Source: Paenibacillus sp. Soil766
Lineage (GTDB): Bacteria > Bacillota > Bacilli > Paenibacillales > NBRC-103111
Assembly: GCF_001428105.1 (NCBI RefSeq)
Contig: NZ_LMSJ01000017.1
Span: forward strand, 26,322 to 90,321
DNA: 64,000 bases
Direction: 5' to 3'
Shown here: one piece after another, positions 1 through 13,460 of the stretch
How the letters are laid out: each line of letters begins with the position of its first letter
How positions within the stretch are numbered: the stretch's first letter is position 1
Translations under genes and position numbers: made by a program
The notes under the pieces: model-generated
What the model was told of the DNA's origin: nothing
Seen by the model: the letters and a program-made list of their open reading frames with translations, nothing else
The model's database searches: none

Positions 1-72
1 TTTCAGCACCTGCCATCCCAAAAAGAAAAAGTGGATGCCATATCTTGTGAAGATCTAAATTGTTGTGATTAG
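1..72 (+). CDS. arsR: C-terminal end of a probable ArsR-family repressor (cut by window edge)
   Basis: An open frame runs from the window edge to TAG at 70-72, giving 23 residues that end in a Cys-rich tail (SCEDLNCCD). The stop lies 8 bases before the arsB start, and the arsB ribosome site follows at once. Position at the head of an ars operon and a terminal Cys-Cys pair, as in some Bacillus ArsR proteins, suggest the arsenite-responsive repressor. No DNA-binding region is visible, so the call rests on context. Confidence 0.45.
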
Positions 73-80
73 GAGGAACC

Positions 81-1669
81 ATGACTTACATTGCGGTACT
101 TATTTTTCTTATTACATTAACTTTTGTTATTTGGCAGCCTAAAGGCCTCAACATCGGATGGTCTGCTTCTGCTGGCGCTATCCTAGCTCTTATCTTCCAA
201 GTCGTGTCTTTCCACGATGTACTGACGGTTACATCCATCGTTTGGAACGCTACGCTCGCTTTTGTCGCAATTATTCTCATTTCCTTAATCTTAGACAATA
301 TCGGATTTTTTGAATGGGCTGCCTTGCATATGGCGAGGATTGCAAAAGGAAATGGACGGCTCATGTTTGTGTACGTCATTTTATTAGGCGCGGCAGTTGC
401 TGCATTTTTCGCAAATGATGGTTCTATAGAAGAAACAACGGACACGTTCCGTACCCAGCCTTAATCTTAGACAATATCGGATTTTTTGAATGGGCTGCCT
501 TGCATATGGCGAGGATTGCAAAAGGAAATGGACGGCTCATGTTTGTGTACGTCATTTTATTAGGCGCGGCAGTTGCTGCATTTTTCGCAAATGATGGTGC
601 AGCGTTAATTCTAACGCCAATTGTATTAGCGATGGTCCGAGCGTTGAAGTTGCCAGATAAAATGATTTTTCCTTTCATCATGGCAAGTGGTTTCATTGCA
701 GATACAACTTCTTTGCCTTTGATTGTCAGCAACTTAGTGAACATCGTATCTGCGGACTTCTTCGGTATCGACTTTGTCACTTATGCAAGCCGCATGATTG
801 TCACGAGCCTGTTTTCATTAGTAGCAAGTCTGGTAGTCTTGTACGTGTTCTTCAAAAAGGACATTCCTACGAGTTACGATATGAAACAATTAAAGCAACC
901 TTCAAATGCCATTAAAGATCTTAAGCTATTTAAAATGTCGTGGGTTATCCTTGGTATCCTTCTCGTCGCGTATGTAAGTAGCGGATTTATTAATATTCCT
1001 GTTTCCATCATCGCAGGAGTCGTTGCACTGATCTTCATTTTGATGGCTAGATCCAGTAAAGTGATCGAAACAAAACAAGTGATCAAAGATGCTCCTTGGG
1101 CTGTAGTCATATTCTCTATCGGCATGTATGTTGTCGTTTATGGCCTTAAAAATGTCGGTCTCACGGATGCCCTAGGAACGGTAGTTGAGAACTTAGCAGG
1201 ACAAGGATTATTTGTCGCAACAGTAGGAATGGGCTTCTTGTCGGCTATTTTGTCCTCCATCATGAATAACATGCCGACGGTTATGATTGATGCTCTTGCT
1301 ATCAAAGGTACAAATACAGACGGTATTATACGAGAAGCACTGATTTACGCCAATGTTGTTGGAAGCGATCTTGGACCTAAGATAACACCTATCGGTTCAC
1401 TCGCAACCCTTTTATGGCTTCATGTTCTATCTACGAAAGGTGTAAAAATCACATGGGGCAATTATTTTAAGACAGGTATCATTCTTACTGTCCCAACGCT
1501 CTTGATTACCCTCACGGGGCTTTATTTATGGCTTTACGTTATTAATACAACGAGTGTGAATATTTGGTTGTTAATTGTTGCGATTGCAGTCATTTTGGTG
1601 ATCGCCGCGCTAATCATAAAAGCTATTTTAGGCACAAAACAAATGAAGAAAGGGCATCAAGGCGCTTAA
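81..1669 (+). pseudogene. arsB: ArsB arsenite efflux pump, disrupted by a 176-bp insertion/duplication
   Basis: The start ATG at 81 follows AGGAGGAACC. Residues 1-114 are the N-terminal membrane part of an ArsB-type arsenite/antimonite carrier, but then the frame shifts and stops at 464. The rest, including the [13 protein letters not shown] helix and the remaining membrane segments, lies in another frame from about 458 to 1669. Removing 176 bp (positions 423-598) restores one frame of about 470 codons, the usual ArsB size. As written, the pump would be split: a truncated 127-residue peptide, and a 3' part whose first ATG is at 500. It sits directly upstream of arsC. The disruption could be real inactivation or an assembly artefact. 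Confidence 0.85.
283..598 (+). repeat. 140-bp direct duplication inside arsB with 36-bp filler
   Basis: Positions 283-422 and 459-598 are identical by eye over 140 bp. The 36 bases between them (423-458) match nothing nearby and contain a small inverted repeat (ACGGA-cacgt-TCCGT). The copy-to-copy offset is 176, which is not a multiple of three and causes the arsB frameshift. Confidence 0.92.
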
Positions 1670-1705
1670 ACCTGGATGTCCTCATACAAAAAGGAGAATA
1701 AAACC

Positions 1706-2134
1706 ATGGAGAACAAAAAACCGTTAGTATATTTTCTTTGCACAGGAAACTCTTGCCGCAGCCAAATCGCTGATGGATATTTGAAAGCTTTAGGCGGAGA
1801 TAAATATGAAGTGAAAAGTGCTGGTTTAGAAGCCCACGGATTAAATCCACGTGCAGTTGCAACAATGAAAGAAGATGGAATCGACATCTCAAACAATACT
1901 TCCGATGTGATTGATACAGAGATTCTAGGCCGCGCTGAGTACATTATTACATTGTGTGGTCATGCAGATGAACACTGCCCTGTTGTCCGTAATGATAAAG
2001 CTCAAAGATGGCACTGGGGATTTGACGATCCTGCGAAAGCAACTGGGACGGAAGAAGAAATTACAGATAAATTTCGTGAAGTGCGCGGATCCATTAAGAG
2101 CCGAATTGAACAATTTGTGAAAGAAGGCAAGTAA
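1706..2134 (+). CDS. arsC: Arsenate reductase, thioredoxin-coupled (LMW-PTP fold)
   Basis: The 142-residue protein reduces arsenate to arsenite for export. The P-loop CTGNSCRSQ gives nucleophile Cys12 and Arg18. Cys84 and Cys91 ([12 protein letters not shown]) match the Cys82/Cys89 redox relay of the Bacillus subtilis and Staphylococcus enzymes, so thioredoxin rather than glutaredoxin coupling is expected. Start ATG 1706 is chosen over an upstream ATG because AAGGAG lies 8 bases before it and the family begins with this motif. It is the second operon gene after arsB, and its stop is one base before arsI. Confidence 0.95.
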
Positions 2135-2135
2135 C

Positions 2136-2612
2136 ATGATCAAAAGAATGCACGTTGCTGTTAACTGTTTAAACCTTCAGAGGTCTCTTGATTTCTACCG
2201 TGCCTTCTTTGGTACGGAGCCTTCTAAAGTCAAAGAAAATTACGCTAAATTCGAGTTGGATGATCCAGCCCTTCATTTTTCCTTAAACGTTCGACCTTTT
2301 GAGAAAAAAGGCGTCCTTAATCATTTGGGATTCCAGGTAGATAACACGGAAGACGTTCTGGCTATGGGCGAACGGTTAAGACAAAGCGGACTTCTTCTCA
2401 TAGATGAAATGAACACAACATGCTGTTATGCGGTTCAAGATAAAGTCTGGGTTTATGATCCGGACGGTAATGCTTGGGAAATTTTTTACACCAAAGAGGA
2501 TTCGGAATTTGAATCTGCAGGGGATTTGCAGGATATGTCTCTATGTTGTGCTCCTCCTTCTGCACCGTCCTCGCCAGTAACAATTGAATTCACACCCTTT
2601 AAGAAAAAGTAA
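2136..2612 (+). CDS. arsI: ArsI-type C-As lyase (vicinal oxygen chelate dioxygenase)
   Basis: This 158-residue glyoxalase-fold protein belongs to the ArsI/CadI group. Expected Fe(II) ligands are visible as His6, His63 (NHLGFQ) and Glu115 (WEIFY). The diagnostic vicinal cysteines Cys96-Cys97 (TTCCYAVQDKVWV), which bind trivalent organoarsenicals, are present, with a second CC pair near the C terminus (SLCCAP). ArsI cleaves the carbon-arsenic bond of methyl- and aryl-arsenicals, giving As(III). The ATG is one base after the arsC stop, so translation is probably coupled. With arsB broken, the released As(III) would have no visible pump in this window. Confidence 0.88.
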   Translation: MIKRMHVAVNCLNLQRSLDFYRAFFGTEPSKVKENYAKFELDDPALHFSLNVRPFEKKGVLNHLGFQVDNTEDVLAMGERLRQSGLLLIDEMNTTCCYAVQDKVWVYDPDGNAWEIFYTKEDSEFESAGDLQDMSLCCAPPSAPSSPVTIEFTPFKKK

Positions 2613-2622
2613 GGAGATCATT

Positions 2623-3057
2623 ATGGAGAAAAATTATCAAGCACTTGTTGATGACAAAATTTTTTTTGGCGGAGCTGCAGACGTAGAGGCTATGATTAAA
2701 AACGAGAACGTTGAGATTGTAGTCGATTTGCGCGGTGAAGCTACGGAGTGTGCCTATCCAACAGATGGCGTAGAATGGCTTCAGGTGCCGCTTGGTGACA
2801 ATGCAGAAGGTCCACAAGACCAACTATTCCAACAAGCCATAAATCACGTTGTAGAGGCGTATAAGAGCGGTAAGAAAGTTGGATTCCATTGCGGTGGTGG
2901 AAAGGGACGTACTGGCGCTGTGGCCATTGGCACTTTGATTACTTTAGGAAAAAGCGAAACCATCGAAGATGCTGAAAATTTGGCAAAAAGCATTCGCCCA
3001 GTTGTTAGTATTAGGCAGCCTCAGCGTGAGGCACTTGAGAAGTTATATAAAAAATAA
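2623..3057 (+). CDS. Ars-operon dual-specificity (protein tyrosine) phosphatase family protein
   Basis: A 144-residue cytosolic protein with the HCX5R phosphatase loop (HCGGGKGRTG, Cys near residue 89) and an upstream aspartate loop (VDLRGEA). Start ATG 2623 follows TAAGGAGATCATT. It is the last gene of the ars operon, 10 bases after arsI and before a perfect terminator. Its substrate is not evident; such phosphatases are found with ars genes, but a role in arsenic detoxification is an inference from linkage. Confidence 0.8.
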   Translation: MEKNYQALVDDKIFFGGAADVEAMIKNENVEIVVDLRGEATECAYPTDGVEWLQVPLGDNAEGPQDQLFQQAINHVVEAYKSGKKVGFHCGGGKGRTGAVAIGTLITLGKSETIEDAENLAKSIRPVVSIRQPQREALEKLYKK

Positions 3058-3095
3058 TTAAAGTTAGTCTTAAAGATATTCATGTAAGAAATAGC

Positions 3096-3141
3096 AATAA
3101 AAAAGAGGAGATTGTATATAAACAATCTCCTCTTTTTTATT
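3096..3141. terminator. Bidirectional terminator after the ars operon
   Basis: A perfect 20-bp inverted repeat around a 6-base loop has A and T runs on its flanks. It ends the ars operon and may also serve the opposing gene starting downstream. The rest of the 3058-3363 gap shows no gene or clear motif. Confidence 0.9.
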
Positions 3142-3363
3142 GGTGTGAGATAATATTTAAACGTAAGTTTTTCCTTCCTATTTCTATATTTTCAAGCAAT
3201 AGAAAATATCAAAGGCAAGTACAACGGATATTCCCTTACACTGGTGTTATTTTATTATCTATTAAGTATATCCTACCTCTTAACACAATTGCTCGATGTT
3301 TTGCAGGTGATATTTTAGTGACTTAGAATGGACACCAAGCTATCTGGCAATCAACTTTACTAG

Positions 3364-4359
3364 TTATTCCGATAACATCTGTGATACCAATTCTGCCGAT
3401 AACGTTCGAGATCCACTTATACCTTTAATATACTTGAATGGGCCATAACTGGACCAATCTATAGCTTTAAGCTTCTTTACATAACTCGCCATACGTTTAT
3501 AATCAATTTGCTTTTTCTCCTCAGAAACACATTTAGCAAAAATCACAGCCCCTGCCATTGCAAGAGCATTTAAACAAACGATATGAGTGATTCTATATTC
3601 CTTATAATCCAACCATTCCATATTGAAATGTTCTTTAAAAGCATTAAAGTACACCAAGACTATCATGAGTTTTTCATCCTTAGTTAAATTTGCCACATGA
3701 TTTGCCTTCAACATAAACTCTAATATTTTATATAAATTCTGCAAGGTAACATGTCTACCTGTACTTCTTTTACCAGTAATCGTGCCAATGTAATGAAATG
3801 GACTATCGCTTCGAACAATAAGCTCGGTGGCTATCCAACTGAAATCATCAGAATATCTGCGTAGGTATCTACTTAGAGAAATGCCGATTCCTTTTGCCTT
3901 TGTATTTATTGTATCAAATAGCTGAATTTCTTCGTCCTCATCTAGAAAGTGAAATGCCAAGAAAGGAACGTTTATTTCTGAATTGGTATCCTGTGCATAA
4001 CGTTTAATTCCACCTAATCTATGTTGTCCATCCATCAATGAAGCTTTTTCCTTACATATTAACCTGCCATAGGATGGCCTACTTTTATCATAAGTAGAGA
4101 ACTCCCACTTAGATTCCGCATTTAACAAAATAGGAGTAAATAGGGCATTGTCCCCTTTTGAAAGATACATAGCAAAATCATTACATCTTTTGATATCAAC
4201 AGGACGTTGATATCCTTTGCCTGAAGGATGGTCAAATGGCTTCACATAAGTAAGTTGTAAGGCAGAGGTCGTAGATAAATTACCCAAATAAGCAACTTTA
4301 CCCCGCATCTTATATTGAATCACGTTTTCAATAACGTGATGGCTCATTAAATTGCTCAT
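3364..4359 (-). CDS. DndB-like DGQHR-domain protein (orphan)
   Basis: A 331-residue soluble protein with the signature DGQHR at residues 110-114, an upstream GYQRP motif (49-53) and the FDTINTKAKGI stretch typical of the DndB/DGQHR family. In phosphorothioate DNA modification DndB is a regulator, and related DGQHR proteins occur in phage-defence islands. No dndA, C, D or E genes, nor any nuclease, is visible here, so its activity is unknown. AAGGAG lies 8 bases before the ATG. It is divergent from an XRE repressor with a palindrome over the presumed start site, suggesting linked control. Base composition is as AT-rich as the recombinase genes. Confidence 0.8.
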   Translation of the reverse strand: MSNLMSHHVIENVIQYKMRGKVAYLGNLSTTSALQLTYVKPFDHPSGKGYQRPVDIKRCNDFAMYLSKGDNALFTPILLNAESKWEFSTYDKSRPSYGRLICKEKASLMDGQHRLGGIKRYAQDTNSEINVPFLAFHFLDEDEEIQLFDTINTKAKGIGISLSRYLRRYSDDFSWIATELIVRSDSPFHYIGTITGKRSTGRHVTLQNLYKILEFMLKANHVANLTKDEKLMIVLVYFNAFKEHFNMEWLDYKEYRITHIVCLNALAMAGAVIFAKCVSEEKKQIDYKRMASYVKKLKAIDWSSYGPFKYIKGISGSRTLSAELVSQMLSE

Positions 4360-4376
4360 GGTGTTATTCTCCTTGT

Positions 4377-4421
4377 AGGTTAGTGTAACCTTATTTTAGG
4401 TTATATAATACCTATTTTCAA
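4377..4421 (-). promoter_or_regulatory. Promoter and AGGTTA operator for the DGQHR gene
   Basis: Read leftward there is TTGAAA (4421-4416), a 17-base spacer and TAAAAT (4398-4393). Immediately after the -10 box lies the inverted repeat AGGTTA-gtg-TAACCT (4377-4391), with another AGGTTA at 4398-4403. Placement over the start site suits a repressor operator, and the neighbouring XRE protein is the obvious candidate. Confidence 0.55.
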
Positions 4422-4494
4422 ATGGTATTAAGTAGTATATTACACTTCATACTTTGTATGGACTTACCTACTCTTTAAGTAGAGAGGTGAGGAT

Positions 4495-4830
4495 ATGTCG
4501 AAGTTCTTTGCAAGCGTCGGAAAAAAAGTTAGATTCTACAGAAAAGCTGCTCAATTATCACAAGAGGAACTTGGAGCGCTATTAAACATAGATCAATCCT
4601 ATCTCGGTAAAATCGAACGAGGAGAAGTAAATATAACACTTGAAACAATACAAAAAATTTATGAAGTGTTGAATATTAACCCCTCGCAATTATTTGAGGA
4701 AGAAAAAGATAGAACAACTAAAGAAAAAAATGAACTCCTTAATAAAATAGACCTTCTCTTGGTTAACCTTAAATTAGATGAGTTGAAAACGATATACAGA
4801 ATTATTAAGGATATTTTGTTATTTAAATAG
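4495..4830 (+). CDS. XRE-family HTH transcriptional regulator
   Basis: A 111-residue protein with an N-terminal Cro/CI-type helix-turn-helix (about residues 8-65: LSQEELGALLNIDQSYLGKIERG) and a C-terminal Lys/Glu/Leu-rich helical tail, probably for dimerisation. GAGGTGAGGAT precedes the ATG. A small inverted repeat (CTACT/AGTAG) sits in the leader just before the ribosome site. It is divergent from the DGQHR gene and likely controls it, itself, or the element's transfer functions. Confidence 0.88.
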   Translation: MSKFFASVGKKVRFYRKAAQLSQEELGALLNIDQSYLGKIERGEVNITLETIQKIYEVLNINPSQLFEEEKDRTTKEKNELLNKIDLLLVNLKLDELKTIYRIIKDILLFK

Positions 4831-4849
4831 CTGTGAGTCTTCATCTTAT

Positions 4850-4878
4850 TTGGGTTTGGTTCTAATTAATGATACAAT
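4850..4878 (+). promoter_or_regulatory. Sigma-A-type promoter for the intact yhiN-like gene
   Basis: TTGGGT (4850-4855), a 17-base spacer and TACAAT (4873-4878) lie 27 bases before the ATG at 4906. This implies that the intact flavoprotein gene is expressed independently and does not rely on a host promoter. Confidence 0.55.
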
Positions 4879-4905
4879 TTGCAAAAATGAGTCAAGGAGT
4901 TTTGT

Positions 4906-6171
4906 ATGGCATACGATGTAATTGTGGTCGGTGGAGGATCTGCCGGTTTAATGGCAAGTATAGCTGCCAGCTTAAGTGGGGCTAAAGTTCTTCTCCTGGA
5001 TAAGGGAGATAAATTGGGGCGTAAACTTGGGATTTCTGGTGGCGGTAGATGTAACGTAACAAATAACAAAGAAACGGATGAATTAATCAAACATATCCCT
5101 GGTAATGGTCGCTTTTTACATAGTGCATTCAATAATTTTAGTAACAAGGATATCATTGAGTTTTTTGAAAACCTTGGAATTCGCCTTAAAGAAGAAGATA
5201 ACGGTCGCATGTTCCCTATAAGCGATAAAGCTAAAACGGTTGTGGACGCGCTTGTTAATCAAGTTCGGAAACAAGGTGTAGATATAAGAATTAATAGCCC
5301 TGTAGATAACATTAATTTTAATAATGGCTCAGTCTCTGGGGTACGTTTAAAATCTGGTGAAACCCTTCGGAGCAAGAATGTGATTGTTGCTTCCGGCGGC
5401 AAATCCGTCCCGCATACTGGTTCTACTGGAGACGGTTATCTATGGGCTAAAGATGCAGGTCATTCAATTACTGATCTTTTCCCTACAGAAGTCCCATTAA
5501 CTTCTAATGATTCTTTTATTAAAAGTCGTGAACTACAGGGGCTTTCGCTTAGAGATGTATCATTGACGGTATGGAATAGTAAAGGTAAGCCTATAATTTC
5601 TCATACTGGTGACATGCTGTTTACGCATTTTGGTATTTCTGGGCCAATTGCATTAAGATGTAGTCAATTTGTTGTAAAAGAATTATCAAAGAGTGGGCTA
5701 AAAGAAACTATCCTTACTGTTGATTTCCAGCCAAATAAAGCGCTTGGCGAGGTATATGATGAAACACTCGCTTTAACTAAAAACGAGCCTAAGAAGGCCA
5801 TTAAAAACGTTCTCAGGGGATATCTGAATGAACGGATCATCCCTTTGCTTCTACAAAAGGCAGAACTCGATGAACAACTTACACATGATAATATACCTAA
5901 ACAAAATTGGATGGCATTAAGCAAATTAATTAAAGCCTTTCCAATCAAAATATCAGGTACTCTCTCGATTGAAGAAGCTTTTGTAACAGGCGGTGGTGTT
6001 AATCTAAAAGAGATCGATCCCAAAACAATGCAATCCAAGCTCATGAATGGATTATACTTTTGTGGAGAAGTCCTTGATATTCATGGTTATACTGGTGGAT
6101 ATAACATTACAGCAGCTTTTTCTTCAGGTTATACTGCGGGTAAAAATGCAGCAATGTCTTTATCAGAATAA
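4906..6171 (+). CDS. FAD-dependent oxidoreductase, HI0933/YhiN (YtfP) family, full-length element copy
   Basis: The 421-residue flavoprotein has a Rossmann dinucleotide motif near the N terminus (VVGGGSAGLMAS), the family hallmark GISGGGRCNVTNN, and the C-terminal FAD segment CGEVLDIHGYTGGYN. Family members are described as aminoacetone oxidase-like or NAD(P)/FAD-dependent oxidoreductases of uncertain substrate. The gene is AT-rich (about one third G+C in places), unlike the G+C-rich remnant of the same family at 12909-13460, to which its last 160 residues are about 65% identical by eye. An intact, separately promoted copy beside the recombinases suggests it replaces the gene broken by integration. 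Confidence 0.9.
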   Translation: MAYDVIVVGGGSAGLMASIAASLSGAKVLLLDKGDKLGRKLGISGGGRCNVTNNKETDELIKHIPGNGRFLHSAFNNFSNKDIIEFFENLGIRLKEEDNGRMFPISDKAKTVVDALVNQVRKQGVDIRINSPVDNINFNNGSVSGVRLKSGETLRSKNVIVASGGKSVPHTGSTGDGYLWAKDAGHSITDLFPTEVPLTSNDSFIKSRELQGLSLRDVSLTVWNSKGKPIISHTGDMLFTHFGISGPIALRCSQFVVKELSKSGLKETILTVDFQPNKALGEVYDETLALTKNEPKKAIKNVLRGYLNERIIPLLLQKAELDEQLTHDNIPKQNWMALSKLIKAFPIKISGTLSIEEAFVTGGGVNLKEIDPKTMQSKLMNGLYFCGEVLDIHGYTGGYNITAAFSSGYTAGKNAAMSLSE

Positions 6172-6216
6172 AAAAAGTGCCCCTATCTCTTTTTAAAGAG
6201 AAGGGGCATTTTTTAA
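6171..6216. terminator. Bidirectional terminator between yhiN copy and recombinase operon
   Basis: The stem GTGCCCC/GGGGCAT encloses an inner CTCTTT/AAAGAG hairpin, flanked by A and T runs. It serves both converging transcription units. Confidence 0.88.
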
Positions 6217-6413
6217 AAATCAGGCAACACTTTGCATGGTTGTTCGTATAAAGATGAATTTCCAGTCAGTAATGCATCTCGCTCTGTTTGTAGCTTCTGA
6301 ATCTCTTCACGCAGCCTCTCAACTGTAGCTTCCATCTCTGATATTCCATCATACAATTGTTTTACGTATTCATCCTGCTCATTCAATTCATCATCCCCTA
6401 ACTCTCCAGTCAT
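6213..6413 (-). CDS. Small acidic coiled-coil protein, last gene of the recombinase operon
   Basis: A 66-residue, highly acidic protein with an acidic N-terminal third and a heptad-rich helix (EATVERLREEIQKLQTERDA) likely to form a coiled coil. Its ATG overlaps the stop of the preceding gene (ATGA), indicating translational coupling. No family was recognised. Its place at the end of a recombinase operon suggests an accessory factor or partner for the coiled-coil protein encoded just upstream. It lacks any visible enzyme motif and could be dispensable. Confidence 0.7.
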   Translation of the reverse strand: MTGELGDDELNEQDEYVKQLYDGISEMEATVERLREEIQKLQTERDALLTGNSSLYEQPCKVLPDF

Positions 6414-6850
6414 ACAAGATCTATAGTGCCATGCTTCTCAATTACTAATATTCTTAATTTTTCATTCTCTTCTCTTAATGCATGTAGGGCTTTTTTGTAC
6501 TCAGAGATTAAGTCCCTTTGTTTGCGATTCTTATCCATAAGATCAGCTAAATCTTTATGATTAACTGAGGTTTCATCCACATTACCTTGTTGATCTAAAG
6601 AAATTTTAATTTCTTCTACTTCTTTTTCTAACTTCGAATACCACTCGTCAAGGTAAGTCCAAACTTCGCCTTCCCATAGAGTACGGTCACTTTTCAAATT
6701 AATTTTAGGTCGATTTGCAATGAGTAAAAATACGTCCTTTTTAACTATTTTTGATAATCTACCCTTTTTGCACTCGTTAATAATATGCCTCTTAACTTGC
6801 CCTGCTTCATATTTTAATTCACTCATTGTAAAGCTTCTTTTCCTACCCAT
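6410..6850 (-). CDS. TnpC-like small helical accessory protein
   Basis: A 146-residue basic protein that resembles Tn554 TnpC in size, position after the large recombinases and helical nature. The basic N terminus (MGRKRSFTMSELKYEAGQVK) could contact DNA, and the C-terminal half is a predicted coiled coil (KNRKQRDLISEYKKALHALR). Its start overlaps the preceding recombinase gene by 28 bases and its stop overlaps the next start. In Tn554, TnpC influences the efficiency and orientation of insertion; assigning the same role here is inference. Confidence 0.65.
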   Translation of the reverse strand: MGRKRSFTMSELKYEAGQVKRHIINECKKGRLSKIVKKDVFLLIANRPKINLKSDRTLWEGEVWTYLDEWYSKLEKEVEEIKISLDQQGNVDETSVNHKDLADLMDKNRKQRDLISEYKKALHALREENEKLRILVIEKHGTIDLV

Positions 6851-9183
6851 TCCAATTTTCCTTCTTTCAAATATTGAAGTGCTTCTTCAAAAGTTAATAT
6901 TGGCTTGGTTTGCTTATATTTTTTCCAGTAACCCTTAGCTTTGTCCCATAAACCTTTTTTCAGTTTTGGGATCTCTCTCGGGGTAATTGAAAACTTCTTC
7001 TCCAATAACTTTGGAAAAGATTCATCAATAAGTTCTATAATGTCATTTGAGCGTATACTAACTAGTTCTTTCTGAATGGAGTCACGTTTTGACTTCGCCA
7101 TTTCTTCCCCGCGTAACGCCAACAGCATAAATCTAAAGATTTCAGCAATATGCTCGTTATATTTATCATCATCAGGCTTGTAGTAATCGCATTTAAAACA
7201 ATGAAGTTCTGTATGACCACAGTTGAGCATTTCATGCGCTACACAGTTATGTGTGAATCTCGGAAATCCAGCAGAGACATTATTTATGGGCATAAACGAG
7301 GTATCATTTGAAAAGCCAAACTCCGCTTCTTCGTTCTTGAACTTCTCAATTAGTGAGGATATAAATTGTTCTTTATCATCAGCTTCTACCACTTTTGCCG
7401 CCTGTTCAAGAAGTGGGTCAAGTTCAAGATCTGTTGGCTCCTCTAGTTTATTTACAATATTACCCCATACGCCTTCTTTATAAATTTCACTATAATATTG
7501 CTGAATTTCAGGTGAAGATGTCGCTATGTATGGAATTAATGAATTGGGACTACTATGACCTAGTTGATCTTGTATCTCATGTTTGCTTTTATTTTTCATT
7601 ACCATATAAATGGCATGCATTCTCCTTAAATCATGTGATGTGAAATATTCACTTTTAGGTTTTTCAGGCCAAATCCTTTTTTGAAGCCTAATTAAAAACT
7701 TAGATATATCATTATTTGTTAATGCATTACTCTCTATTTTGTTAGCAAATATCCTATATTCGGTTAGGCCATCCCCATTATTATTTCTTGCTGAGTAAAT
7801 CTTATATTTTGGAGCAAACTTAGCAGACTGATCAATCCAGTTTTGAATATCTTCATTAGCTTTAACAACACGAGGCTTACCATTCTTTGTTTTATGCAGA
7901 TGCAACCACTTGTTGCCATGATGATCTGTAGTTATACAGCCTTTAAGCAACAAACAAACTTCTGTTACCCTTGATCCCGTTGCTAATTGAATAAGACAAG
8001 CTCTTCTACAACGAAACTCATATATACCATTCTCATTAATATAAGGTGATTGCTCGTCTAGAAGAGAATGTATTAAAGTGTAAGCACTTCCTAAACTTAA
8101 AACCTTACCATATACGCTTGTTTTTCTTTTTAATGAGGTAGGTATAATTGTGTTAACAACCAAATTCAATTCATTTTTCCAAATGTAATAGGTTAGCCAT
8201 TTCTTTAGCAAAAATCTAAAGTGATTTATTTTTTTGCGATCCCACACACTGCTACGGCTAATATGAATTAGCACTTTATTAAGCCCACCAGATATCAATT
8301 CTAGAGGCGTATTTATTCCAAAACTATTAATATATCTTAGATGCCTCTTAAGATTACTATTTTCACTAACCCAAGTAGTTAATGTTATCTGTCTAATTGC
8401 ACTTCTTACATTATGGATTCGATTAACTGGTTGTGGTAAAGCTTTTATATCTATATCCTTTACATGAGGTAGCATGTAATCAAAACTGTAATCATAAAAA
8501 CTTTGTGCTAATTCTGTATTGACTTCACACAATAAGGTCTTCCATCTATTTTTCACAAGATCTATGTAAGATTTAGGAATCTTTTTTTTATAAATGCTAT
8601 GTTTTATATGTGTTTCTTTTTCTCTTTCAAGAATTACACTTAATACTCCTAAAGCTCTTCTTCTCACAAAGTTTTTTTTCCTTTCAGTATGGGCTTTTAG
8701 CAACATGAGAAGATCATCGTCAACGTATTTTCTGCCTTCATTTTTTAATAGTCCATACCCAGCAGCCCAAATACAAAAGACCAAATTCATAATATCAATT
8801 TTCAGTTCTTCCTTTTTATACTCATTATTGATATCCAACTTAAATAACTCAACGAAATGCGTCTCAAGTTTATCTTCTATCCAATTAAAGTTATGAATTT
8901 TTTTTAGGGGTAGAGAGAAGAACTTAACTGATAATGTATCATCCAATGACCATGTGACTCGTTGGTACAACAATAAGTAGTTAACGTAACATTTTTCGTG
9001 TTTTAAGAGTGATTTATAAAAAACAAGATCACAGAATTTCTGTATTGGAAGTTTTGTAAGATGTTCAATTTGATTCCATGATTTTGAGATGACTAATTCC
9101 CATTCTAATTTTGTAAAGTGTCTATCTACTCCTACTTCACAAATGTATTTTTTAGTATTTTTAGCAATTGCTAATGAACCCAT
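6823..9183 (-). CDS. Tyrosine recombinase, third of trio (786 aa)
   Basis: The catalytic set of the phage-integrase family is complete: Arg405 (TGSRVTEV), His517-x-x-Arg520 (HDLR), His543 (LGHSS) and nucleophile Tyr552. The roughly 390 residues before it are far longer than in ordinary integrases. After the catalytic domain comes a Cys/His-rich segment (CVAHEMLNCGHTELHCFKC), a likely zinc site. Start and stop of neighbouring recombinases overlap as TAATG, so the trio is probably made in fixed ratio. Three different recombinases together point to a Tn554-like or RIT-like site-specific transposon. Confidence 0.88.
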   Translation of the reverse strand: MGSLAIAKNTKKYICEVGVDRHFTKLEWELVISKSWNQIEHLTKLPIQKFCDLVFYKSLLKHEKCYVNYLLLYQRVTWSLDDTLSVKFFSLPLKKIHNFNWIEDKLETHFVELFKLDINNEYKKEELKIDIMNLVFCIWAAGYGLLKNEGRKYVDDDLLMLLKAHTERKKNFVRRRALGVLSVILEREKETHIKHSIYKKKIPKSYIDLVKNRWKTLLCEVNTELAQSFYDYSFDYMLPHVKDIDIKALPQPVNRIHNVRSAIRQITLTTWVSENSNLKRHLRYINSFGINTPLELISGGLNKVLIHISRSSVWDRKKINHFRFLLKKWLTYYIWKNELNLVVNTIIPTSLKRKTSVYGKVLSLGSAYTLIHSLLDEQSPYINENGIYEFRCRRACLIQLATGSRVTEVCLLLKGCITTDHHGNKWLHLHKTKNGKPRVVKANEDIQNWIDQSAKFAPKYKIYSARNNNGDGLTEYRIFANKIESNALTNNDISKFLIRLQKRIWPEKPKSEYFTSHDLRRMHAIYMVMKNKSKHEIQDQLGHSSPNSLIPYIATSSPEIQQYYSEIYKEGVWGNIVNKLEEPTDLELDPLLEQAAKVVEADDKEQFISSLIEKFKNEEAEFGFSNDTSFMPINNVSAGFPRFTHNCVAHEMLNCGHTELHCFKCDYYKPDDDKYNEHIAEIFRFMLLALRGEEMAKSKRDSIQKELVSIRSNDIIELIDESFPKLLEKKFSITPREIPKLKKGLWDKAKGYWKKYKQTKPILTFEEALQYLKEGKLEWVGKEALQ

Positions 9184-11279
9184 TATATAGCTTCCTTTTT
9201 CGTTATATTTTCTATGGCTTCAAGTACCATTTCGTCTATTTTCACTTCTGTAAGTCCAAGTTCAGTTAGCCTCTTGATGATTAATGATATAGTCCTCATT
9301 TGACCTGCTGCAATCGAATTATTAGATGTGTAATTAGTACTACATTTAATTATTGACCTCATGTTAATAATTTGTTTCACTAGAACCACTATTGCATCTT
9401 GTATTTCCTCGCGGCGCATAAGAAAATTCTGACATCCCCAGCATTTGTACCAATTGTCGCAAGATTCTTGACTTAAACAAAAACCCATTTCTACACGCTT
9501 ACCATATTTAAGTAGAAACTCGTCTAACCCCATTTCTGTTGAGAGAGCATTCATCATAGCTTCAACTGGCGGATCCTCCGATGTGAGGAACTGCAACAAT
9601 TTCACATAAAATTTACCACTCACTTCACCTTGCTCATATTTAGAAAGCACACGATGAAGTAAAGCATTTCTTGAAACCCTGCTTTTTAAATATAACCTTG
9701 TCATTTCTTCATTTTTATGACCAGCAGCAACCCGAACAGCCTCGAGACTACCTGTTTTCATTGCTATATGAGTTAATAAAAAAGTTCTGTAACCATGTGC
9801 ACTAATTCGTTCAGAAAGTTCATCTTCATTTAGCACTACTAATTTCATTTTTTCTAAAAAACGTCGAACAGCAGAATCTGAGAGAATCCATGGTGGTTGA
9901 TTAAACTGGAACAAGTGTATAAATTCTCTTTTATATTTTTTACTCCATATTGGTTTTAGTTGGAGTAGGTCCGCTCGTTTCTGTAATTCAGTAATGGCCT
10001 CATAACCTATTGGATCAAGAATGGGGAATTGCCCATACTTATTACCTGCCTTATCTTCATCATGTGAATATAATCCAAAAGCTTCAGGTTGGTTAGGTAA
10101 CGGTTTCAATGCTTGTTTGCTTTCTAAGTTCAATACAAAACTAAATCTGGGAGGAGAACTAGCAACTATAATCCAAAACCATCTGCATAATTCTTCACTT
10201 TCATTTTCAGGAACATATTTATAAATACCTTCCACCATTTTTTTTGCAATCTCCTCAGATGAAAGAGCAAACCCTTCGCTATTTATATATTCCTTTGACG
10301 CTTTCTTGAATAAACTAGCCCACTCCTCCTCTGGGAAATTTAAGTGTATTGGGAAAAATGAAGGTAAAGCTCCAACTCCCCATTCAAAAAATTTTCTTAA
10401 AGTGCTTAGTTTACTTAGATGATAAGAAGTACCAATCTCTTTTTCCCCCCCCTGCTTAAACCTAATTGTTAATTTCCTAAAATCACTTATTGTAAATGAT
10501 GTAAAATCATCTTTCTTCTCTTCATTTAGATACTCAAATAATTCGTACATAATTTTAGACATTCTAATAATGTAATTTTCAGAAGCATCAGCAACTAGTA
10601 GGTAATTATCATATTTGGATACAACATCTGCCCAAATTGGATTAGCATGACTTAATAATTTTTCCCAATTTGTTTTTTTTCTTCTCCTTATCAGAACATT
10701 TGTGTACCCCAATTTAATACGCAGGTCTTGTAATACCTTTGGATTATAACGATCTTCGTTGGAATAACTAATAGTCCTTGCATATTGACTATCTTCATCA
10801 GTAAAACTATTGAGAGACATCCTTTTAAGAATGGTATGCATCCCCAAACATTTTCTAAAGCCAGTGCGAGTAAAAGTGCTATTTTGAGAAATCAACTGAT
10901 CTTCCTGATCTGATACTAGACCAAAATATCTAGACCATTTATATTGTAATTGGGAGGAAGTAGTGTCTTTTTGGAAGTAATTTAGCATCATGTCATAATT
11001 AATTTCATCTTTATGTTGTGGATTAATATTTAAATACCATGGAATTATATAGTACATTTCAGTGAATCTTTCTTCCTTATAACGAATTTTATTATCAAGA
11101 GATGCCTCCATCCACTGTTTTCCATCTGTAAAATCTTTATGAAGATTATCTACAATTAACTTAAGCTTTTTCAAATTTTCTATTAAATAGTCTCTTTGGC
11201 TTTTTAATCTCCCTCTCATGTGAAATGCTTCCAAATACATGATCGAAAACTTATCCCATTCTAACCATTGATAACTCAT
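9183..11279 (-). CDS. Tyrosine recombinase, second of trio, TnpB-like (698 aa)
   Basis: Catalytic residues visible are Arg378 (PPRFS), His495-x-x-Arg498 (HGYR), His521 (GHKN) and Tyr530. A C-terminal Cys cluster (CLSQESCDNWYKCWGC) probably binds zinc, as in large TnpB-type recombinases. Length is close to Tn554 TnpB (about 630 residues). It starts 14 bases after the first recombinase, and its TAA overlaps the ATG of the third. All three recombinases keep active-site residues, so the element may still be able to move. Confidence 0.88.
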   Translation of the reverse strand: MSYQWLEWDKFSIMYLEAFHMRGRLKSQRDYLIENLKKLKLIVDNLHKDFTDGKQWMEASLDNKIRYKEERFTEMYYIIPWYLNINPQHKDEINYDMMLNYFQKDTTSSQLQYKWSRYFGLVSDQEDQLISQNSTFTRTGFRKCLGMHTILKRMSLNSFTDEDSQYARTISYSNEDRYNPKVLQDLRIKLGYTNVLIRRRKKTNWEKLLSHANPIWADVVSKYDNYLLVADASENYIIRMSKIMYELFEYLNEEKKDDFTSFTISDFRKLTIRFKQGGEKEIGTSYHLSKLSTLRKFFEWGVGALPSFFPIHLNFPEEEWASLFKKASKEYINSEGFALSSEEIAKKMVEGIYKYVPENESEELCRWFWIIVASSPPRFSFVLNLESKQALKPLPNQPEAFGLYSHDEDKAGNKYGQFPILDPIGYEAITELQKRADLLQLKPIWSKKYKREFIHLFQFNQPPWILSDSAVRRFLEKMKLVVLNEDELSERISAHGYRTFLLTHIAMKTGSLEAVRVAAGHKNEEMTRLYLKSRVSRNALLHRVLSKYEQGEVSGKFYVKLLQFLTSEDPPVEAMMNALSTEMGLDEFLLKYGKRVEMGFCLSQESCDNWYKCWGCQNFLMRREEIQDAIVVLVKQIINMRSIIKCSTNYTSNNSIAAGQMRTISLIIKRLTELGLTEVKIDEMVLEAIENITKKEAI

Positions 11280-11293
11280 AAATGCACTTCCCT

Positions 11294-12781
11294 TTATTGT
11301 TTTGTCGGTTTGAAGGTTTCTAATATATCTTGCACTGATCCATCATTTTCAGAATTATAAGCATTAGGAATCCAATGAGAATAAGTTGTACGTGTAGTTT
11401 CCGTACTTCTATGTCCTAACCATCTACTAACATCATCTATTTGAATATTCAGTTTTTTCAGCAGATAGGTAGCATAAAAATGCCTAAATGTATGGGGGCT
11501 AAACTGTGAAAGATCTAAATCTCTTTCTCTTATTAGTTGTCTGTTAATGTTTTCATATTTCTTGGCTACAGCTTTACCTGTTATTGGGAGTCCTTGACTT
11601 TTTCTATTTCTGGATACAAATAAATATCCGTGGTCTACTTTAATGTTTCGCATTAATATTTGACGCTCTCTTAATGCTTCATAAAGCAAATTCAGGAAAA
11701 CCTCTTGAGAAAATAGCCATGGAATTTCTCTATATTCCCCGTCCCTTTTATGTCCTGCTCTAAAATCCGGATTATCCCTATCCGTGATCTTACAAACCCA
11801 AAACCCCTTGATATCTTTTTCGTAAAAGTCTATATCGCCCTTAATACCTTGTTTAATTAGCCGTTTAGCCTTATGATAATCCAACCTTAGTAGATTGTTT
11901 GGAATGGAAGTAGGATCAATCCATATACCTGCCGCTTCGCTTGACCTCGGACCTAGGAAACGTAGAATATTAAAAAGAAGTTTATCCTGGTAATTACTTG
12001 CAATTTCTATGAATTGTTCTGTTTGTTCATATGTAAAAATCGAATCTACTTTCAAGCTTTTCAAACCATAGTATTTGCTTTTGCTCCCTACATCTCTAGT
12101 AATAGTTGAGATATCAATTGTTGGAACGCGTTTATCTCCAACTGTACTCGAAATAAAACCTCTTAATTTTTTACTCTTATGTGGTAGCTCATTAATTTGA
12201 AGTGAAGCATAATACGATGACCTTTTCTTCAAGAATAGAAGATACTGCACAGTAGTACGCACTATCTTATTTATACTCGTACTTGAGTAACTACTAATTG
12301 CAGAACGTTGTAGCATTCCAAATTCATCTCTTTGAATATTAGTAACTTTACCTTCAGATTCCCCCCAGATATTCAAAGGAATTGTTCTTAGCATAACCCA
12401 CTCTAAAGCATCCTCTACACCAACATCCGTTCTAATCAACTGTAGATAGTCTGTAAACCCTTCTAATACAACTAGCAAATCTGACTCTAATAATTCAATC
12501 TCCCAAATCAATAAGAAGTCTAAGAATTTTTTTAAATCATTAGCTTCATTCCTTACTGTATTAATTGCCTTACCACTGCTTTTCCTTGATATCAGAAATG
12601 AAGTAGCTTCATGAACCGTAGTATGATCAGGTCTTGAAATGGAGACAATATTCTTATCTGGAAGAAACCTAGCATAATGTAACCCATCCAACTTTTTCTC
12701 TGTATATATCCTAACAACACTTTCTAACCTTAATTTATTGTCCATTATGTTTACTATTTTAAGAAGTTTTTGATACCCCAA
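11294..12781 (-). CDS. Tyrosine recombinase, first of trio, TnpA-like (495 aa)
   Basis: First gene of the operon. Active-site residues are Arg279 (LGPRSSEAAG), His430-x-x-Arg433 (HTFR), His457 (LGHRS) and Tyr467, all in family spacing, with an N-terminal SAM-like core-binding domain (about residues 50-180). TTG at 12781 is chosen because AAGGTGG lies five bases before it, while the downstream ATG at 12745 has no ribosome site. The gene begins about 130 bases from the host-gene remnant, as expected for a recombinase operon at an element end. Confidence 0.88.
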   Translation of the reverse strand: MGYQKLLKIVNIMDNKLRLESVVRIYTEKKLDGLHYARFLPDKNIVSISRPDHTTVHEATSFLISRKSSGKAINTVRNEANDLKKFLDFLLIWEIELLESDLLVVLEGFTDYLQLIRTDVGVEDALEWVMLRTIPLNIWGESEGKVTNIQRDEFGMLQRSAISSYSSTSINKIVRTTVQYLLFLKKRSSYYASLQINELPHKSKKLRGFISSTVGDKRVPTIDISTITRDVGSKSKYYGLKSLKVDSIFTYEQTEQFIEIASNYQDKLLFNILRFLGPRSSEAAGIWIDPTSIPNNLLRLDYHKAKRLIKQGIKGDIDFYEKDIKGFWVCKITDRDNPDFRAGHKRDGEYREIPWLFSQEVFLNLLYEALRERQILMRNIKVDHGYLFVSRNRKSQGLPITGKAVAKKYENINRQLIRERDLDLSQFSPHTFRHFYATYLLKKLNIQIDDVSRWLGHRSTETTRTTYSHWIPNAYNSENDGSVQDILETFKPTKQ

Positions 12782-12908
12782 TCTATCCCACCTTATCCGA
12801 CAATAAAATCTATAACTTCAATTCCTTTAATAAAATTAACTGTATTAATTATTAATCTTTTACCAGTATATTCATAGAGAAAACTGATTTCAATAGTTTT
12901 GGGGGTGA
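12782..12908. other. Right end of the element, noncoding, with junction to host gene
   Basis: A very AT-rich stretch without genes contains the leader of the recombinase operon. It ends at GGGGGTGAT-TA before CTGTTCACCCACTTC, where homology to the family's GDMLFTHFG segment begins. In the intact copy the same place reads GGTGACATGCTGTTTACGC. The crossover therefore lies within or beside GGTGA..CTGTT, but the exact core cannot be fixed without the empty site. Confidence 0.55.
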
Positions 12909-13460
12909 TTACTGTTCACCCACTTCGGCCTGTCAGGGCCGATCGCGCTGCGCTGCAGCCAGTTCGTCGTGAAGGAACTGAACAAATCCGAGCGCAAAGA
13001 AGTGCTCGTCACGGTGGATTTGTTCCCCGAGCGGAGCACCGACGAGGTATACAGCGAGAGCATGGCGCTCGCGAGGAGCGACGCGAAGAAAGCGATTAAG
13101 AACGTGCTCAAGTCCCTGCTCTCCGAGCGGCTCATACCGCTGCTGCTCGCGAAGTCGGAGCTGGACGAGCAGCTGACGTATGACAACATTCCGAAGCAGA
13201 AATGGTTAGAGCTGTGCAAGCTCATGAAGGCCTTCCCTGTTATCGTTAAGGGAACGCTGTCTTTGGAAGAAGCTTTCGTGACCGGCGGGGGGATTCAGCT
13301 CAAAGAAGTCGATCCAAGCACGATGCAGTCGAAGCTGGTTCAAGGACTCTACTTCTGCGGAGAAATTCTTGATATCCATGGCTACACCGGCGGGTACAAT
13401 ATCACGGCAGCCTTCTCCACAGGGTATATGGCGGGCACGCATGCGGCGATGCAGGACTAG
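12909..13460 (+). pseudogene. 3' remnant of the host yhiN-family gene (target of insertion)
   Basis: Codons from 12909 encode LLFTHFGLSGPIALRC and continue to TAG at 13460, about 183 residues matching the C-terminal 44% of HI0933-family proteins. The in-frame TGA at 12906 marks loss of homology. G+C (about 57% near 13081-13140) is far above the intact copy at 4906-6171, so this is host sequence whose 5' part was separated by the element. A GTG at 12969 could start a 163-residue peptide, but without FAD-binding residues it would not be functional. Confidence 0.88.

Follow-up and report, generated by a model that had tools for sequence, protein, structure and literature searches.

How can a genomic island settle inside a conserved gene without harming its host? 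Harmless insertion is achieved by many islands through the use of gene ends or tRNA genes as targets. The question is raised by a locus in Paenibacillus sp. Soil766 (genome G000; 8.26 Mb, 60 contigs), where a stretch of 64,000 nucleotides, here termed the window (contig NZ_LMSJ01000017.1, denoted C17, positions 26322-90321), contains three tyrosine recombinase genes next to the 3' remnant of yhiN, a conserved flavoprotein gene of the HI0933 family. An initial annotation of the window proposed that a recombinase element had broken this gene and supplied a spare copy so that insertion costs nothing. We favor a closely related reading, with a probability of roughly 0.8: an island resembling the GInt class of genomic islands breaks yhiN and brings a diverged full-length replacement that would take over its function.

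yhiN is split at a shared codon and accompanied by a spare copy

The island spans C17:6615-39232, about 32.6 kb, and is bounded at both ends by halves of host yhiN. It had been taken for an element of about 10 kb, but its left end lies outside the window, at C17:6615, and arsenic genes are included. The 5' half was predicted to lie upstream and to end in GGTGA(T/C)ATG; searching the genome for the family located it at C17:5904-6620, some 20 kb to the left of the window, ending in GGTGATATG. The G+C-rich remnant on the right (G+C content, GC, up to 0.55) was confirmed as the 3' part of yhiN. An uninterrupted host yhiN elsewhere would have made the remnant irrelevant, and the family search saw no other intact yhiN in this genome besides the island copy and the two halves; a 341-residue frame on contig C27, which was not inspected, needs its neighbors added in to reach the family cut-off.

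At the left junction, GGTGATATG is followed by ATCCTTGAATCACCCAC, and the right junction reads GGGGGTGATTA CTGTTC ACCCACTTCGG. The island is flanked by imperfect direct repeats, GGTGATATG-ATCCTT-GAATCACCCAC on the left and GGTGATTA-CTGTTC-ACCCAC on the right. An uninterrupted yhiN from another genome (G011) provides the empty site, which reads GGTGATATGCTGTTCACCCACTTCGG. Occupied sites are split at the same codon in four genomes, those of Soil766, P. alginolyticus (G004), P. chondroitinus (G007), and P. pectinilyticus (G012), so that targeting of this gene at a fixed site holds as proposed. In all four, the host side on the left ends in ATG and is followed by a varying core (ATCCTT, CCTTTT, GCGGAT, or CCCTTT) and then by the conserved GAATCAC(C/T)CACATGCATA. 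The right side resembles the host's own core, and the inner ends are inverted repeats. A varying left core with a host-like right core fits the core exchange reported for GInts and Tn554-like elements.

A full-length gene of the same family lies in the AT-rich block of the island, as first noted. It has a GC of 0.386, AAGGAG precedes its ATG, and its protein is 69-71% identical to the host remnant. The search for the same recombinases in other genomes found three with the same element, codon, and spare, and these spares are 95-98% identical to that of Soil766. The block common to the four elements runs DGQHR, helix-turn-helix (HTH), yhiN, small open reading frame (ORF), ginD, ginC, ginB, and ginA, and is spread over two contigs in P. 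alginolyticus. Between elements, the spare has a synonymous divergence (dS) of 0.30-0.49 and a ratio of nonsynonymous to synonymous divergence (dN/dS) of 0.042-0.064 (six pairs), which shows purifying selection among the four islands. The host 5' halves of the same genomes differ by a dS of 0.47-1.08 (six pairs). Set against each other, these values indicate that the protein encoded by the spare has long been maintained, and that the elements probably spread from species to species once their hosts had separated. As to the phylogeny of both copies, spares and the yhiN of P. qinlingensis (G016) form one clade (support 100/99), and four host halves are scattered among native yhiN genes in a tree of 31 rows, five of them host halves, from which 17 of 42 intact-gene rows were left out by a start-motif pattern that missed them.

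A candidate role for the insertion site within the spare, recoding as self-protection, was not supported: the right half of the site in the Soil766 spare equals that of the occupied host site in P. alginolyticus. The site pattern matched 20 of 24 native yhiN genes, missing those of G002, G005, G018, and G023.

Among 30 genomes of the genus, yhiN is split at that codon and accompanied by the spare in the four named above. One intact native gene, 72-78% identical to the spare, is present in 24, while P. qinlingensis has a single yhiN of the spare type and none was found in G029. Across the order, with up to four candidates scored per genome, yhiN occurs in 388 of 392 genomes and gives more than one match in ten. 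Five of these ten (the four yhiN-island genomes and G053) have a split native gene plus a full copy; an extra full copy occurs in none of the 378 single-match genomes. Fisher's test on 5/10 versus 0/378 gives p=3.5e-9, which is descriptive only, since the genomes are related and four of the five represent one element lineage. Outside the order, GInts were found in 2 of 398 genomes of the class and 1 of 398 of the phylum, with up to three candidates scored per genome and Soil766 counted each time.

A plasmid or phage origin was also considered and rejected. Plasmid searches with the three recombinases gave no match, and the 40 matches in phage records include none of at least 60% identity. Matches to yhiN occur in 172 plasmid records, of which the three opened resemble chromosomal neighborhoods; viral contigs gave no yhiN relative and four weak recombinase matches.

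Spare copies also at topB and in an element with a serine recombinase

GInts with recombinases 26-37% identical to those of the Soil766 island sit within topB, the gene for topoisomerase III. Islands of this kind split topB in P. pectinilyticus (G012:C19, ~95 kb), P. qinlingensis (G016:C22, ~41.5 kb), and P. macquariensis (G325:C46, ~96 kb). Each lies on one contig; the N-terminal topB piece is found by ginA and the C-terminal one at the opposite end of the island, near which there is also a full-length TopB frame. The spares of P. pectinilyticus and P. qinlingensis show 6 differences in 1878 nt, and the host remnants of the two have a dS of 2.3; against P. macquariensis, the P. pectinilyticus spare has a dN/dS of 0.074. 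In 28 other genomes of the genus there is one native topB, 81-87% identical to the spare (matches at or below 41% were set aside). For Paenibacillus sp. BJ-4 (G245) and for an uncultured Brevibacillus (G747), the two topB pieces fall on different contigs; in both, a full TopB adjoins the C-terminal piece. The TopB subfamily of these two spares is not that of the broken gene: the BJ-4 spare is 34% identical to the remnant, and the Brevibacillus spare is 75% identical to that of P. pectinilyticus, which is 33% identical to the Brevibacillus remnant. Full-length TopB was found in five of six topB-split GInts. Related elements inserted at another gene might have lacked any copy of their target; that those at topB carry a TopB copy instead strengthens the idea of target replacement.

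An element 99.5-99.8% identical to that of BJ-4 over the compared stretches lies at a non-topB site in a genome whose host topB is intact (G283). Its spare TopB has a stop codon and its ginA is broken, while the BJ-4 spare is intact. The exception is informative, though it is one case and general decay would look alike. Near the far end of the P. macquariensis island, a 61-residue TopB fragment (L139:13120-13302), which matches the other-subfamily BJ-4 spare at 61% identity, is perhaps the trace of an earlier spare. For an Alkalihalobacillus element (L100) the target was not found, and its three closest TopB genes all have full length. A further element (G007:C4) ends at what resembles the 3' end of an HU gene, over 11 residues; no second HU match was seen in the 60 kb read, and its other end was not found. 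This may be a contrasting case of insertion at a gene end, but is too weak to build on.

The design extends to another class of recombinase. G053, from another genus in the same family, has an AT-rich element of ~21.4 kb that interrupts yhiN near codon 190, with a large serine recombinase (PF00239, PF07508, PF13408) at one end and a full-length yhiN at the other. This spare has a GC of 0.39 versus 0.63-0.65 for the remnants, and the element ends are 21-bp inverted repeats. GinA had no match in the genome, and the gin queries had none in the 120 kb read. The design seems to have arisen convergently in this element.

P. qinlingensis has the spare type without the split. The single yhiN seen in its genome is of the spare type over a stretch that begins ~73 nt before the start codon and reaches the last codons. 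It lies at the native locus with flanks syntenic with G011 (3' proteins 86-100% identical), and there is no ginA or ginC match at that locus. On the simplest reading, an island would formerly have occupied the native locus, and recombination would have left the spare as the resident gene. Between this yhiN and the host flank are AT-rich genes that by eye resemble copper-resistance genes (L071:8450-15643), and ~310 bp of this stretch match the P. alginolyticus yhiN island at 88%.

Recombinases and cargo of the island

The three recombinases had been credited with full R-HxxR-H-Y sets, and alignment finds these complete in all three: R279/H430/R433/H457/Y467 in the ginA-like, R378/H495/R498/H521/Y530 in the ginB-like, and R405/H517/R520/H543/Y552 in the ginC-like protein. 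The Pfam integrase domain is present in each, below the cut-off in the ginB-like one. Coupling to two small genes was confirmed (Table 1), and the gap of about 130 bp to the yhiN remnant corresponds to the ginA-like start codon, ~131 bp away. The first arginine of GinC, R405, is invariant in eight GinC rows.

Between yhiN islands, ginC has a dN/dS of 0.15-0.25, and in every one of the six pairs ginA, ginB, and ginC have a dS above that of the spare. The parts of the element may therefore differ in history. GinC is ~70% identical across islands whose yhiN is 95-98% identical, with a dN/dS ~3-5.5 times that of yhiN, as if the recombinases were diversifying. The P. chondroitinus GinC frame (L021) has 969 residues, and its N-terminal part was matched twice.

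Table 1. Features of the island and its right boundary, in window coordinates (aa, amino acids).
Feature	Position	Strand	Description
Right-hand island part	1..12911		Left 19.7 kb beyond window; host yhiN halves at both ends
Arsenic cargo	81..3057	+	ArsB-type pump ORFs; low-molecular-weight-phosphatase type (ArsC-like); glyoxalase type; dual-specificity (DSP-type) phosphatase
DGQHR/DndB-like protein	3364..4359	-	98-99% identical in three other yhiN islands
HTH regulator	4495..4830	+	Ends 75 bp upstream of spare yhiN
Spare yhiN	4906..6171	+	Full length, HI0933 family, 421 aa
Small ORF	6213..6413	-	66 aa; overlaps ginD end; also in related islands
ginD-like gene	6410..6850	-	146 aa; position matches GInts
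ginC-like tyrosine recombinase	6823..9183	-	786 aa
ginB-like tyrosine recombinase	9183..11279	-	698 aa
ginA-like tyrosine recombinase	11294..12781	-	495 aa
Right inner end GGGGGTGATTA	12901..12911		Inverted match of left inner end GAATCACCCAC (C17:6621-6631)
6-nt core CTGTTC	12912..12917		Same as G011 empty site; left-end core differs, ATCCTT
Host yhiN 3' remnant	12912..13460	+	HI0933 family; pairs with 5' half C17:5904-6620

The island carries an arsenic operon, with further arsenic-type genes left of the tabulated block, and genes for a UmuC-type polymerase, an ATP-dependent ligase, a GerA-type germination protein, a protein kinase, and a sigma-type factor. The ArsB-type arsenite pump consists of two ORFs (81-464 and 500-1669) with a repeated segment in common, as if the broken pair were the product of an internal duplication. 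The polymerase and ligase (L010:118-1389, L010:3735-4580) are also present in the P. qinlingensis topB island (L028), which suggests a common repair cargo; the Vibrio recA island likewise has umuDC (PMC4405046). Among the proteins of the yhiN islands, conservation is highest in DGQHR (dN/dS 0.009-0.021), and DGQHR/DndB-like and HTH genes also lie beside the gin genes in topB islands (65% identity, P. pectinilyticus and P. qinlingensis).

Competing explanations and known systems

In the preferred explanation, the three recombinases and GinD would insert the island, probably by way of a circular form, at the fixed yhiN codon, and insertion breaks host yhiN. The spare would be expressed, perhaps together with the HTH gene upstream, and would take over yhiN function; the host would survive and come to depend on the island. 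Insertion would then be free of cost, as first proposed from the sequence.

Several observations weigh against this explanation. The spare had been credited with its own promoter, but a consensus scan of the + strand gave no site upstream. The left 6-nt cores are unlike the yhiN core, and earlier insertion sites may therefore have been elsewhere. Five genomes of the order (G035, G046, G206, G309, and G378) have two partial yhiN matches each, none listed as full and with best E-values near half-gene values; these may be splits without a spare. In Sulfobacillus harzensis, the sixth topB case, topB is split at the corresponding motif, no spare lies beside the C-terminal piece, and the intact TopB found has a different contig as its location. 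Because mobile DNA commonly carries TopB, the topB case loses some of its weight. GinC of the Soil766 island has the first catalytic arginine, unlike GinC of the published GInt set, where its absence is described but is not a definition (PMC5385486).

Alternatively, the intact copy could be an unrelated acquisition, a cargo gene that matches the target by chance. The varied cargo would agree with this, as would the lack of a traced source (the order search found no donor, the best non-element yhiN being 78% identical). Chance is nonetheless a very unlikely explanation, given that the same spare is present in all four yhiN islands, the topB islands have a matching copy too, the serine-recombinase element does likewise, and an extra full copy is absent from all 378 single-match genomes. 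A nonfunctional spare could instead serve as a homologous anchor for recombination into, or replacement of, the resident gene, and the native 3' flank of the P. qinlingensis locus, where gin genes were not found, is what this would leave. Spare and native proteins differ at about one quarter to one third of residues, which is poor for homologous recombination; selection has preserved the spare protein; and two topB spares are only about one third identical to the broken gene, so an anchor is improbable. Least probable is that the spare is a leftover of an earlier insertion cycle, a captured gene bearing an attachment (att) site, as suggested for Tn552-II. The spare does include the site region, with the match to the P. 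alginolyticus host site given above, and the internal att copies in or near tgl of Tn552-II are possible ancestral remnants according to its authors (PMC12486829). A leftover, however, would not be expected to remain full length under strong purifying selection, and the topB spares of another subfamily do not agree with it.

Target replacement by the island thus remains the explanation we prefer. Whether it is a recurrent, convergent strategy is an evenly balanced question: islands with unrelated recombinases would hit the interiors of conserved genes and bring a copy from a foreign lineage, the host would become dependent, and the foreign gene could eventually come to occupy the native locus, as P. 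qinlingensis suggests. If so, an island can land safely inside a conserved gene whose replacement it carries. The range of targets would widen, and the host would have reason to keep the island, an addiction without a toxin. It would also be a route for horizontal replacement of conserved genes and a mechanism for swapping them between lineages. The resulting candidate rule is that insertion in mid-gene predicts a target copy and insertion at a gene end predicts none.

Tn554 has two recombinases (TnpA and TnpB) and TnpC, and recombinase trios comprise three adjacent RIT-type recombinases. Kinship with either had been suggested, but the island has three recombinases, unlike Tn554. Its recombinases are adjacent, and a ginD-like gene is coupled to them. 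A GInt-like identity is preferred to Tn554 or RIT. For the gamma-mobile-trio, the GmtY match reached 33.1 bits versus a curated cut-off of 340 bits.

By gene order and ends, and set against published GInts by description, the island resembles a GInt. It has three tyrosine recombinases and a small protein at one end in ginABCD order, the cargo starts right at ginD, and its size lies within the published span of 2.5 to more than 70 kb; site-specific insertion, imperfect direct repeats, and the behavior of the 6-nt core are shared as well (PMC5385486). Identities between Gin families are below ~35% in that 2017 report, and its GInts inserted at gene ends or between genes, with the target probably not completely inactivated (PMC5385486). 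The yhiN island differs in its mid-gene position and its target copy, which is not among the features described for GInts in the available part of that account (PMC5385486). No GInt carrying a target copy was found in the open-licence literature, in searches that did not use yhiN or topB by name.

A close parallel in design is the RME of Vibrio cholerae S24, a mid-recA island with a functional recA of 23% divergence and 9-bp inverted end repeats (PMC4405046); a similar recA island is reported in V. parahaemolyticus (PMC4334540). Both designs place an island within a conserved gene and carry a divergent copy. The RME differs in its target and in having one integrase and a XerS-type recombinase rather than ginABCD, and its copy function and movement were tested (PMC4405046). 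Tn552-II, a tyrosine-recombinase transposon, carries a target-like gene, tgl, for which its authors suggest a rescue role, and brings its core from the previous site; it differs in having tnpABC, a size of 9 kb, and a yolD-like or plasmid gene as target (PMC12486829). The authors of Tn6283 propose that cargo compensates for disrupted bcp, citing the RME (PMC5991714). Strand-biased circularizing elements share the 6-bp footprint (PMC5991714, PMC10214605) but have a core of two recombinases, Tfp and Srap, and their proteins and those of GInts fall into different clusters in a 2023 study (PMC10214605).

In the literature consulted, the prior basis for target replacement was recA of Vibrio, together with the suggestions made for Tn552-II and Tn6283, to which two more target genes are now added. 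Target replacement has precedents in recA of Vibrio and tgl of Tn552-II; what is new is the same arrangement in Bacilli islands of GInt type, with a counterpart in an element that uses a serine recombinase.

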